A DNA stretch of 26,412 nucleotides, from IMG/VR virus record IMGVR_UViG_3300042691_014481, positions 1 to 26,412 of that record, one strand, 5' to 3'. Positions 543 through 16,198 of the stretch are shown in pieces. The position numbers and the translations under genes are program-made. Positions within the stretch are counted from its first letter, which is position 1. Each line of letters starts with the position of its first letter. Below the pieces are notes generated by a model. The model was not told where the DNA came from. It ran no database searches and saw only the letters and a program-made list of their open reading frames with translations. Source of the stretch: a virus.

Positions 543-585
543 TATTTATCTGTGAAATTATTCATAATAATAGTAAATATAAAAT

Positions 586-978: not shown

Positions 979-1251
979 ATGATTAATTTACAAATTTCAG
1001 AAAAACAAGCGCAATATATAATTGAAAGTTTACTTTTTTCGTCTGGGTGTGATGTATGTTCAGACTGGGACAAAAATGATATTGACGAAATGATTGAAAC
1101 AGCATCTTTAATTAGAACACAAAACAATTCTGTAAAAATAGAAAATGTTTATGTTCATAATCCATTATTATCTGATAATAATGAAATTTTTGATTCTATA
1201 ACAACACAAATTCTTTCAAAATTTCCAGAACTCTTAAAAGAAGATATTTAA
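979..1251 (+). CDS. Hypothetical protein, 90 aa
   Basis: I do not recognise this protein. Its first 40 residues (ISEKQAQYIIESLLF, then CDVCSDWDKNDIDEMIET) suggest two helices separated by a CxxC. Two cysteines are too few for a metal site without a partner. The rest is polar and probably helical. It ends three bases before the next ATG, so the two genes are presumably cotranscribed from the candidate promoter at 936. The start is the first ATG of the frame and is preceded by an A-run rather than a Shine-Dalgarno. Confidence 0.6.
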   Translation: MINLQISEKQAQYIIESLLFSSGCDVCSDWDKNDIDEMIETASLIRTQNNSVKIENVYVHNPLLSDNNEIFDSITTQILSKFPELLKEDI

Positions 1252-1254
1252 TTT

Positions 1255-1881
1255 ATGAAAATAGCCGTCTTCGGAACTTCCTGTATTGGAAAAACAACAT
1301 ATATCCAAGATTTTTTAAAAACTTGGAAGAACTATAAAACACCAGAAAAAACATATAGAGATTTTTTAGATAAAAATCATATAAACAAAGAAGGAACAGA
1401 AGAATCTCAAAAAAATATTTTAAATGCCCTGGTAGATCAGGCTATTGAATATTCAAAAAAAGATAATGTAATCTTTGATAGATGTGTATTAGATAATCTA
1501 GTATATACAACTTGGTTATTTTTAAATGATAAGGTTTCTGAAAAATTTCTTGATGAAAGCAGGATTATCGTAAGAGAAACATTAAAATTATATGATATTT
1601 TGTTTTTTATACCTATCACAAAAGTAGCTCCTGTTGAAATTTCTCAAAAAGAAACAAGAGAAACTGATGTAACTTATAGAGAAGAAATAGATAATATTTT
1701 TAAATCTTATGTTTCTTCTTATCATAAGAGCGAGGGTAAAATCTTTCCATCAGAAGATTGCCCTGCTGTTATTGATATATTTGGTTCACCAGAAGAAAGA
1801 ATAAAGGTTACTCAATTATATTTGACAGAAAACGGAACTCCTTATGGAGAAGATCAAAGTTTGTTAACTGGAATTAATTAA
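1255..1881 (+). CDS. P-loop NTPase, AAA_28 / nucleotide-kinase-like
   Basis: This is a 208-residue P-loop protein. The Walker A motif is at the extreme N-terminus (GTSCIGKTT, residues 7-15, with K13). A kinase-like second motif, VIFDRCVLDNLVY, lies at residues 72-84, with D75 and R76 in the place of the DR(S/x) base/lid residues of (deoxy)nucleoside and nucleotide kinases. Length and motif spacing fit the AAA_28/thymidylate-kinase-like group common in phages. A second basic region (about 130-145, KETRETDVTYREE) could serve as the LID. It lies next to the primase gene, so a role in dNTP supply is plausible. However, AAA_28 proteins also include nicotinamide-ribose kinases, so the substrate is not assigned. 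Confidence 0.7.
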   Translation: MKIAVFGTSCIGKTTYIQDFLKTWKNYKTPEKTYRDFLDKNHINKEGTEESQKNILNALVDQAIEYSKKDNVIFDRCVLDNLVYTTWLFLNDKVSEKFLDESRIIVRETLKLYDILFFIPITKVAPVEISQKETRETDVTYREEIDNIFKSYVSSYHKSEGKIFPSEDCPAVIDIFGSPEERIKVTQLYLTENGTPYGEDQSLLTGIN

Positions 1882-1905: not shown

Positions 1906-2763
1906 ATGAAAAAATTAAAATTTGACACATTGATTGAATCATTCCTTAATGAAGGAACAATATCTAATGAAGAAAGATATGGAAATGTAGCATTTGATCT
2001 AAAAAAATTATCTGAAAAAATATCCGATTTAGAATCAGATGATTATAAATCAGCTATTTCACCCTTTATCGAAAGATGGAAAGAACAAGGATATCTAGGA
2101 AATCTTACTGCTGATCAAATCAAGTCTATCCTTGATGAAATTAATACTCATGTAGAAGAACTAAGTACAGAAGGAGTAGAAACATTACCATATTCCGAAT
2201 TAAAGACAATTATTGATGGTGTAATGAGAGGTAGATTTAAAGGGTTTAAAGAAGGAATGTCAGTTTTAGCAACTAGATGGAGTGCTAAATTTACTACTTT
2301 ATTCCAAAAAATGAAAGACACTCATATAGAAACACAACCAGAAGAAACTTCGCAAAGTGAAGATGACATGGAATCCATGGATTCTGGTATGGAAAAACCA
2401 ACATCAGCAGCAGAAGAATCATTGTTGAAGTTTATCCAAGCAAGTGATACTGTATCTAGAGAAGAAGCCGTGGATTTCTTATCAAGAAAAAGCGGAATGG
2501 GAAGAGAACCAGAAGTTGCAAATAATATCATTAACAGTCTTATTTCAAAGAAAGAAATAGTAGAAACCGAAGATGGTAAATTAGAAATTAATACAGAATC
2601 TGGTATTGTTGATTCTTTAGCATCTGCTTCTGATGAAGATGATGAAATCGAAACAGGAATTCCTTTCAGAGAAAGAGGTATTGAAGACGAAGACGAAGAT
2701 GTTGCCGATACTTTCAGAAGAACAACACAGGGAGATACTGATTTCGAAAGATCTGGATGGTAA
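1906..2763 (+). CDS. Acidic protein with possible winged-helix region
   Basis: A 285-residue protein of unknown function. Its N-terminus (MKKLKFDTLIESFLNE) is loosely reminiscent of the short capsid-targeting leaders of T4 internal and core proteins. Residues 25-140 look all-helical. Residues 140-168 form an acidic, Gln/Ser-rich linker. Residues 168-230 look like a winged helix: helices over EESLLKFIQ, SREEAVDFL and EVANNIINSLISK, followed by a hairpin-like KEIVETEDGKLEI. The tail from 240 is very acidic. A prohead-core, internal or DNA-associated protein is possible. The gene is followed after 43 bases by the primase promoter and hairpin. The function is not established from sequence. Confidence 0.6.
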   Translation: MKKLKFDTLIESFLNEGTISNEERYGNVAFDLKKLSEKISDLESDDYKSAISPFIERWKEQGYLGNLTADQIKSILDEINTHVEELSTEGVETLPYSELKTIIDGVMRGRFKGFKEGMSVLATRWSAKFTTLFQKMKDTHIETQPEETSQSEDDMESMDSGMEKPTSAAEESLLKFIQASDTVSREEAVDFLSRKSGMGREPEVANNIINSLISKKEIVETEDGKLEINTESGIVDSLASASDEDDEIETGIPFRERGIEDEDEDVADTFRRTTQGDTDFERSGW

Positions 2764-2768
2764 TATAG

Positions 2769-2797
2769 TTGACTTTACATTAAAACAGTAGTATAAA
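2769..2797 (+). promoter_or_regulatory. Sigma70-like promoter for the primase gene (TTGACT-N17-TATAAA)
   Basis: The -35 TTGACT is at 2769-2774, the spacer is 17 bases and the -10 TATAAA is at 2792-2797, with five of six consensus matches in each hexamer. Initiation would fall around 2804, inside the left arm of the hairpin at 2793-2829 and just before the ATG at 2807. It is the best host-type promoter in the window. Bacteroidota promoters usually differ from this consensus, so a phage or other host factor may be needed. Confidence 0.5.
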
Positions 2798-2829
2798 AGA
2801 GTCAGGATGAATATTCCTGACTCTTTTAT
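2793..2829 (+). terminator. 15-bp terminator-like hairpin enclosing the primase start codon
   Basis: The left arm 2793-2807 is perfectly complementary to the right arm 2815-2829, with a 7-base loop (TGAATAT, 2808-2814). The right arm ends in TTTTAT and is followed by TTT, so it reads as an intrinsic terminator in the plus direction. The A of the primase ATG is the last base of the left arm and the TG opens the loop. RNA started at 2769-2797 would lack most of the left arm; read-through RNA from upstream would form the full hairpin. Confidence 0.75.
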
Positions 2830-3769
2830 TTTAAATAAATTTTACACTTATAGTCATAATCCGACATATAAAAAGTTTGATGGAGTGTATAATGCCGGTT
2901 GTCCTATATGTAAAGAAGGAAAAAGTTTAGGGAAAAAGAAAAGGTTGTTTTTTTATCCAAAAACAAAATCTTTTTATTGTTTTAACTGCTCCAAGTCATG
3001 GAATGCTATTAATTGGATATCCGAAGTTTCTAATTCAGATATAGATGAAATAAAACAAGAAATTATAGAAAATTCAGATTCATCAGAAGTTTTGTTTAAC
3101 AAAACCACAAGCGACCTCAAAAGAAAACCACAACATCTTCCTTTTGATAGTATTAATTTATCTGATAATAATCAATTATCGTTTTATAACAACAATCAAC
3201 AGGTTAAAAAATGTCTTTCATATGTAAAAGAAAGAAAATTAGATATAGCAATAAACAAATGTAAAAATTATTATTTTAGTATTTCTGATTTTGTCCATAA
3301 AAACAGACTTTGTTTACCATTTTATGATGAAAAGGAAATAGTTTTTTATCAAACTAGGTGTTTAGATGATAGCAATCCAAAGTATCTAGGAAAATCAGGA
3401 GCAGAAAAGTCTGTTTTTAATATATCTAATATAGATTCTGATCTAGAATATATTTTTTTAACAGAGGGACCGATTGATTCTATGTTTATTAAAAATGGAG
3501 TAGGAATAGCTGGTCTTAATATAACAGCATTACAAAAGAAACAACTTTCTAGATATCCTTTTCATAAAAGGATATGGATTTTGGACAATCCTAGAATAGA
3601 TGATTCTTCAATGAAGAAAACACAAGAACTACTGGAAATGAAAGAAACTGTTTATTTTTGGTCTTTAGATAACAAATATAAAGATCTAAATGAATGGTGT
3701 GTTAAAGATGATATTAACCAAATTGATTATAATATAATCATAAACAATTTGTATCCCAAAAACTTTTAG
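2807..3769 (+). CDS. 61: DNA primase, T4 gp61-like (zinc ribbon + TOPRIM)
   Basis: This protein makes RNA primers for lagging-strand synthesis, working with the replicative helicase. It has an N-terminal zinc-binding motif with CPIC at residues 32-35 and CFNC at 58-61. The C-terminal TOPRIM-type catalytic core contains FLTEGPIDSMFIKNG at 217-231 (catalytic E220). It continues with RIWILDN at 255-261 (D260) and a third acidic motif around D293 (DLNEW). The EGPIDS..I.NG and WxLDN signatures and the FW...KD(L/V)N segment match T4 gp61, and 320 residues is close to the 342 of T4. The ATG at 2807 is chosen because the N-terminal zinc motif follows at the usual distance. The start lies in a hairpin loop. 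The stop overlaps that of the convergent gene by four bases. Confidence 0.9.
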   Translation: MNIPDSFILNKFYTYSHNPTYKKFDGVYNAGCPICKEGKSLGKKKRLFFYPKTKSFYCFNCSKSWNAINWISEVSNSDIDEIKQEIIENSDSSEVLFNKTTSDLKRKPQHLPFDSINLSDNNQLSFYNNNQQVKKCLSYVKERKLDIAINKCKNYYFSISDFVHKNRLCLPFYDEKEIVFYQTRCLDDSNPKYLGKSGAEKSVFNISNIDSDLEYIFLTEGPIDSMFIKNGVGIAGLNITALQKKQLSRYPFHKRIWILDNPRIDDSSMKKTQELLEMKETVYFWSLDNKYKDLNEWCVKDDINQIDYNIIINNLYPKNF

Positions 3770-15256: not shown

Positions 15257-16198
15257 TTAAATTCTTTCCCATATATTGTCTTTATTTATAGTATATTTAA
15301 TTTGATTATAACCTAATAAATAAAAATCAAACAGACATTCTAAACTAGAGTTTATCTGCAACATTTTACCGGAAAATGGTCTTCCGTTCGCAGAAAAAGC
15401 TTTTTCGGGTTCTTGGCCAGGTGGCCATCCTCTACAGTATCCAGTAGTTTGGCCAGTAGTTTTAGCTTTTTTTGTTCCAGTAACACCCCCATAGGTTCCT
15501 TTTGAATCTATCCATTCATTTGTACAAAACTCTCCCAAGTTTCCACATCGTCCTCCTCCTGTGGGCCTTCCTAGCCCATCAGTCGCCATTTTATTACATC
15601 CAGGACCACTAACACCCTTTCCACCACACTTAAGAAGGAAAGCATCATTATATGATGTATCACAGAGTTCTTTATGTTTAGCTTTAAAATTAAATTTATT
15701 TGGAATATCAGTATATACAAAAACATTTACATTAATGTTTTTGTATATACCATATTTTTGTTCAGGAAATTTATCATTTATCCATTTAGATAAATCATTA
15801 ACTACTTTTTTAGAAGTAGTTTTATTTTCTAATAAAACTCCATTACCTTTATTAAATGTTCCCCATTCTGATAATTCAATAATTTCTGGAAAAATAATTT
15901 CAAATGGAGTGGAAGAATTCTCCCATATTGTTTTATAATTATTATATGTATTTTGTGTGCTAATTAATCTTGAACTAAATTGTCTTGTAAATGTTATAAA
16001 TTTGTTATAGAGATTTTTGTTTTTATCATATCGTTGTTTTAAAATAACAAACTTTTCTATATCAAAAGAAGAACTTTCAAGATCTTGTGTTATCTTTTGT
16101 AAATTTTTATCTATAATATCAAATGATTTATCTAAACAATAATCTTCAGATATTAAAATTGCATTTTGACATGATGTATTTAAAAGATCAAAGTTCAT
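15257..16198 (-). CDS. Cys/Gly-rich fibre/adhesion protein
   Basis: A 313-residue protein. Residues 1-105 are helical (coiled-coil-like, ending NTYNNYKTIW). Residues 110-175 contain a FEIIFPEI strand, the LSKWINDKF helix and INVNVFVYTD, matching the paralogue downstream. Residues 180-285 form a Gly- and Cys-rich region with at least seven cysteines (LLKCGGKG, GPGCNKM, GGGRCGN, EFCTNEW, GYCRGWPPG). It has little predicted secondary structure and noticeably more G and C in the DNA (about 15400-15640) than the surrounding sequence. Its start overlaps the stop of the 1135-residue gene by 4 bases. The Cys/Gly region looks like a swapped-in receptor-binding or cross-linked tip domain; this is inference. 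Confidence 0.6.
   Translation of the reverse strand: MNFDLLNTSCQNAILISEDYCLDKSFDIIDKNLQKITQDLESSSFDIEKFVILKQRYDKNKNLYNKFITFTRQFSSRLISTQNTYNNYKTIWENSSTPFEIIFPEIIELSEWGTFNKGNGVLLENKTTSKKVVNDLSKWINDKFPEQKYGIYKNINVNVFVYTDIPNKFNFKAKHKELCDTSYNDAFLLKCGGKGVSGPGCNKMATDGLGRPTGGGRCGNLGEFCTNEWIDSKGTYGGVTGTKKAKTTGQTTGYCRGWPPGQEPEKAFSANGRPFSGKMLQINSSLECLFDFYLLGYNQIKYTINKDNIWERI

Follow-up and report, generated by a model that had tools for sequence, protein, structure and literature searches.

A hairpin around the primase start codon as a probable transcript-origin switch in uncultured T4-like phages

The window analysed here, the whole 26,412-base stretch of a virus record with T4-like genes (for example, a tail sheath stabiliser), contains a gene module that ends in a DNA primase gene. 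The module runs in the order 117-aa gene (late motif), 90-aa gene (often with a σ70-like promoter), kinase-like gene, gene of the 285-aa type (late motif), and primase gene (σ70-like promoter and hairpin). Its relevant features are the following.

573-579, plus strand: GTAAATA, a motif of the T4 late type, 6 nt ahead of the start codon (ATG) of the 117-aa gene at 586-939
979-1251, plus strand: 90-aa gene of the same module, whose relatives often have their own σ70-like promoter and a start-codon structure
1255-1881, plus strand: AAA/thymidylate-kinase-like gene of the same module, 208 aa
1894-1900, plus strand: GTAAATA, a motif of the T4 late type, 5 nt ahead of the start codon (ATG) of the 285-aa gene
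1906-2763, plus strand: co-directional gene upstream of primase, 285 aa, no family; likely source of read-through RNA
2769-2774, plus strand: primase promoter, −35 element TTGACT (48 of 55 primase starts have TTGA at the equivalent position)
2792-2797, plus strand: −10 element TATAAA after a 17-nt spacer, ending 9 nt before the ATG (by motif)
2793-2807, plus strand: left hairpin arm, which shares bases with the −10 element and contains the A of the ATG (stem search and shuffles)
2808-2814, plus strand: 7-nt loop, opening with the TG of the start codon (stem search)
2815-2829, plus strand: right arm of the hairpin, within the first primase codons (stem search and relatives)
2824-2832, plus strand: T-rich run TTTTATTTT, a possible terminator tail in the window's clade only (relatives)
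2807-3769, plus strand: DNA primase of the T4 gp61 type, 320 aa (phrog_47, E 6e-33; Zn_ribbon_DnaG below the Pfam cut-off)

The assignment to the T4 gp61 type is based on the match to the phage primase profile, and the name gp61 is taken from the annotation of cultured matches. Compared to a phage collection, the protein shows 26-30% identity among the 60 matches listed, and all 1,629 matching records lie below 60% identity. The sequence M-x-I/L-P-x-S/T-F/Y, or a close variant, is kept at the primase start position in relatives, which argues that this start is real and against one lying well downstream.

The stem formed by ATAAAAGAGTCAGGA (2793-2807) and TCCTGACTCTTTTAT (2815-2829) consists of 15 Watson-Crick pairs without a mismatch; the A of the primase ATG (2807-2809) is the final base of the left arm and closes the stem, and the TG lies inside the loop. 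The original prediction, which described this stem with its 7-base loop and T-rich end, the ATG at the base of the loop, and a promoter ending within the left arm, was thus accurate as an observation. The window contains three stems of at least 12 Watson-Crick pairs with loops of 3-10 nt, whereas 100 dinucleotide shuffles of the window gave 11 such stems in total, none above 14 bp and hence none equal to the primase stem, and no stem of at least 12 bp with at least five G-C pairs. Another perfect stem, of 17 bp with a 6-nt loop, lies at 15711-15750 inside a minus-strand 313-aa ORF (15257-16198) that has no PHROGs match, and exceeds every stem in the 100 shuffles. An Rfam search of the window gave no match at the gathering score. 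A rule-based promoter scan of the window did not list the primase promoter, because its rule accepts only −10 hexamers with T as the sixth base; support for this putative promoter comes instead from conservation among relatives. The same scanner called the hairpin as a terminator on the minus strand only, since on the plus strand part of the T-run falls within the stem.

Searches of viral contigs with the primase yielded one 100% copy (L001), six loci at 65-69% identity, and many more at 38-67%. Our sample of primase starts was drawn from 39 loci plus the best 80 of 335 relatives, leaving out second loci of contigs already included, near-identical copies, and a contig ending at residue 14 (L088/L219). 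Of these, 79 starts remained, 55 once those at least 85% identical over −45 to +35 had been removed, and 40 under a stricter dereplication cut. Five loci at ∼40% identity (L096, L097, L099, L100, and L101) were scored but kept out of the 55, and the 51 most distant loci (L008-L058) stayed outside the analysis. The window's own hairpin is kept in L071, L004, L005, L007, and L102. GTCAGG/CCTGAC in the window and L071 reads GTCTGG/CCAGAC in the other four, a single compensated pair (A-T to T-A) at a synonymous proline codon that comes with a 1-nt register shift, the left arm having moved one base relative to the ATG. L002 is without the window-type left arm, and a different two-part structure covers its start. 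More distant relatives have, at this position, hairpins that are unrelated in sequence (for example, 12 bp in L089, 16 bp in L095, 17 bp in L228, and 10 bp in both L216 and L092); many of these include the −10 element in their loop or left arm. Among relatives, the device is conserved and its sequence is not.

The putative promoter is placed in a way that bears on which RNAs could form the stem. Spacers among the 55 primase starts are 16-18 nt, and in 29 of 52 the distance from the end of the −10 element to the start codon is 6 nt, so that the usual predicted transcript start falls on the start codon itself and the mRNA should be leaderless; in the window, where this distance is 9 nt, a start near 2804 and a leader of 3 nt are predicted from the motif. 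In 48 of the 55 starts, the predicted transcript start comes after half or more of the left arm. Shine-Dalgarno-like tetramers are close to background, being present at 7.4% of 1,017 starts and at 1.6% of the 184 promoter-linked ones, and we infer from the sequences that the local primase mRNA would be translated without a leader. Support for this comes from the same spacing at other promoter-linked genes and at motifs of the late type: 215 of 1,201 starts have TAAATA between −24 and −4, with a peak at −12, compared to 18 and 30 in two control stretches, which suggests that late messages may be leaderless too. Across contigs G001-G006 and the window, TAAATA/TAAGTA, the T4-type late motif, is strongly enriched ∼12 nt before start codons.

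We scored start-region structure as the energy needed to open positions −2 to +6 in a read-through RNA of 80 nt. Across the 55 dereplicated primase starts the median cost is 6.7 kcal/mol (at least 5 kcal/mol in 37 and at least 7 in 26), and the window stands at 9.2 kcal/mol. After trimming to the predicted transcript start the median drops to 1.0 kcal/mol, with 51 of the 55 at or below 2.5; the window's short RNA from 2804 retains a 4-bp stem and costs 3.3 kcal/mol. In six phage contigs and the window, the corresponding values are 2.33 for 178 other promoter-linked starts and 2.04 for 1,017 other starts, some of these control starts being wrong because a simple ORF caller placed them; the stricter set of 40 primases differs from the two control classes with Mann-Whitney p = 4e-10 and 1e-14, respectively.

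A likely source of the longer RNA lies just upstream. The gene upstream of primase is co-directional in 28 of the 28 loci examined, and the gap between the two genes is 30-47 nt in 22 of 23 closer loci and 151 nt in the remaining one (L092). RNA entering from this gene would hold both arms and would fold the primase start codon into the stem, so that no primase is translated; RNA from the primase's own σ70-like promoter would begin on the start codon or only a few bases from it, would lack most of the left arm, and would be translated as a leaderless or nearly leaderless message. We therefore read the hairpin as an RNA switch that senses where a transcript began, with primase off on read-through RNA and on from its own promoter, and give this reading a probability of roughly 0.7. 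The original prediction had proposed such a transcript-origin switch; the computed structure, strong on read-through RNA, largely lost from the local promoter, and recurring across relatives, speaks for it, and other parts of that interpretation, namely termination and likeness to T4, fared less well, so that it is partly supported overall.

Termination is one such part. In the window and in L071, L004, L005, L007, and L102, a GAGTC/GACTC stem is followed by TTTT(A/C)TTTT, as in an intrinsic (rho-independent) terminator, where a stem precedes a U-rich run; in the window, the T-rich run TTTTATTTT is partly paired within the stem. If the hairpin were mainly a terminator insulating primase from the upstream operon, its overlap with the start codon would reflect compactness. 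A stable hairpin likewise lies between the upstream gene and the primase start in five out of five cultured T4-like phages examined (Shigella SP18, Aeromonas Aes012 and avDM4, Proteus Pm5461, and Acinetobacter Melin), and one of the five is annotated as a terminator. However, at least five T's in the 8 bases after the right arm are found in only 4 of the 55 primase starts, yet the start-region structure persists; the T's of the run encode a conserved S-F-I/L-L; and, unlike a typical terminator, the stem overlaps both promoter and start codon. The hairpins of the cultured phages precede the start region instead of covering it and leave the start codon open (2.3-3.7 kcal/mol), which shows that a terminator before gene 61 need not touch the start codon. 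We thus consider it unlikely that termination is the main function. Since the U-run is not general among relatives, we reject termination as a general role and regard it as plausible in the window's own clade, where the same stem and U-run may also end read-through RNA. An appealing idea, drawn from a small sample with five cultured phages, is that both groups must shield primase from upstream RNA.

The switch reading also has to be weighed against the possibility that start-region structure is a functionless by-product of composition, promoter sequence, or constrained coding ends, as the AT-rich genomes and the short arms in many relatives might suggest. Because trimming always takes away some structure, an exchange of leaders and coding parts between loci weighs more here: the native mean of 6.60 compares to 4.09 for swapped combinations, with none of 50,000 permutations reaching the native value (n = 40), and in a first set of 16, none of 100,000 permutations did so for folding energy. 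Looked at one by one, only 11 of the 40 sequences score among the top 5% of their own swaps; the signal therefore belongs to the group. By start-region structure, primase is first of 125 ortholog groups in 6 contigs plus the window and fourth of 117 in 12 contigs plus the window, where the starts of the second-ranked group are doubtful. On the by-product side are the exceptions without structure (0.2 kcal/mol in L167, 1.3 in L200 and L201, 2.2 in L078, and 2.5 in L072 and L192); the feature is absent from six or so relatives and is thus not universal. Distant relatives without a promoter did not serve as a clean contrast, since L096, with no gap and no clear promoter, costs 6.0 kcal/mol and L101, with a promoter, 5.2. 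Covariation points the same way. Among near relatives compared in 27 pairs, 3 double changes preserved pairing and 7 abolished it, while 43 single changes broke a pair and 16 did not. Pair-for-pair covariation is thus weak, and the structure is rebuilt instead of being conserved at each base; of the compensatory changes that the original prediction proposed as a check, the one A-T to T-A pair is found, and we claim no classical covariation beyond it, most relatives re-making the stem in another register. The swap permutations, the shuffles, the promoter-linked controls, and the ortholog ranking nevertheless make a by-product distinctly improbable.

Whether the dyad acts as RNA or as DNA can be judged from its strands. 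Sense folding of primase starts is stronger than antisense folding (−11.85 versus −10.14 kcal/mol, p = 0.02, n = 40; sense lower in 25 of 40), controls show no such bias at promoter-linked starts and the opposite one at other starts, and 52 of 475 pairs in the primase-start hairpins are G-U; together with the sequence turnover, this favors an RNA structure. A DNA operator, a palindrome at the promoter to which a repressor would bind (primase itself, perhaps, or a regulator of the phage), would fit the overlap of the dyad with the −10 element and the precedent of T4 I-TevI, whose hairpin is combined with an operator at its late promoter (PMC2988022), but is very improbable given palindromes that differ widely among relatives, the G-U pairs, and the strand asymmetry.

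An RNA switch of this kind resembles known T4 controls. As described in two reviews (PMC3014915, PMC2988022), in T4 e, soc, 49, and I-TevI (also mobE and segB), a longer RNA initiated upstream closes the start codon or ribosome site in a stem, and a promoter inside or next to the 5′ arm yields a shorter RNA without that arm; these switches sit on late genes with a late promoter, and PMC2988022 describes all genes under this control as late. The primase locus shares the hairpin logic, in that the start codon lies in a computed helix on the long RNA and the promoter, judged by its motif, is placed so that the transcript loses the 5′ arm. It differs in that the controlled gene is a replication enzyme, whereas the T4 genes are described as late; in that its promoter is σ70-like and not TATAAATA, the late motif being found on the upstream genes; and in that Shine-Dalgarno motifs are rare in these phages and the mRNA is probably leaderless. 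The T4 analogy of the original prediction therefore holds for the logic and not for gene class or promoter, and since the late-promoter feature fails, we do not file the primase switch as a member of the T4 type, although it would work alike. Searches of open-access papers on T4 hairpins and on leaderless or primase cases listed none that describes such a switch.

The order of early and late expression is probably reversed compared to the T4 switches, because the primase promoter is σ70-like while the gene directly upstream carries a late-type motif. In 34 of 46 loci, a co-directional gene upstream starts behind such a motif, and with late motifs on upstream genes of the module, late RNA should enter primase unless it is stopped. 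Given the T4-type late motif of the next gene upstream, the likely use of the switch would be to keep primase off late read-through RNA, and we infer that preventing primase synthesis from such RNA is its purpose. We do not claim a general rule by which early genes behind late promoters carry such hairpins: the discovery set agreed with it (9 of 26 versus 7 of 68, p = 0.008), as did the pooled sets (17 of 53 versus 21 of 147, p = 0.0055), but a held-out test fixed beforehand failed (8 of 27 versus 14 of 79, p = 0.15). The held-out set comprised 6 of the 7 contigs named, G016 having been dropped as presumed near-identical to G015.

Start-codon structures are also found at other genes. The top of the 117 ortholog groups, some of its starts being uncertain, is a late-motif gene of roughly 480-990 aa without a PHROGs match (L144:11188-14001, minus strand; L286:11157-13301, plus strand; and orthologs), with TAARTA in the hairpin loop and the ATG in the right arm, as in CCATATAG-ATTAAGTATTT-CTATATGG. 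The 90-aa gene of the module and its orthologs rank third of 117, with 14.6 kcal/mol for the G006 copy. A tail-tube-like gene (L137:9565-10377, minus strand; phrog_45, E 2e-7) has ATAAATA in a hairpin loop and its ATG in the right arm. Clamp-loader genes in G003, G004, and G019 (the last a phrog_168 copy) have start-codon structures of 7.6, 9.5, and 13.2 kcal/mol, though not in all 11 orthologs; with a rank of 22nd of 117, we rejected the clamp loader as a second conserved case. It is conceivable, and we offer it tentatively, that this uncultured T4-like clade, largely without Shine-Dalgarno motifs, nests promoters that abut start codons within hairpins, so that several genes (primase, the 90-aa gene, some clamp-loader genes, and the late gene with TAARTA in its loop) would be translated only from their own leaderless RNA.

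As a regulatory part, the primase locus is very compact, with promoter, read-through off-switch, and start codon packed into ∼60 bases. If it is regulatory, structure has been kept by selection while sequence turned over, and simple sequence alignment would miss such cases. The switch probably limits when primase is made in a group of uncultured T4-like phages. With it, a classic form of T4 control would reach a core gene of replication as well as leaderless messages; if true, primase would be an early gene kept off on late transcripts, the reverse of how T4 lysozyme is controlled, and such hairpins would allow the order of early and late genes to be deduced in phages never grown in culture.
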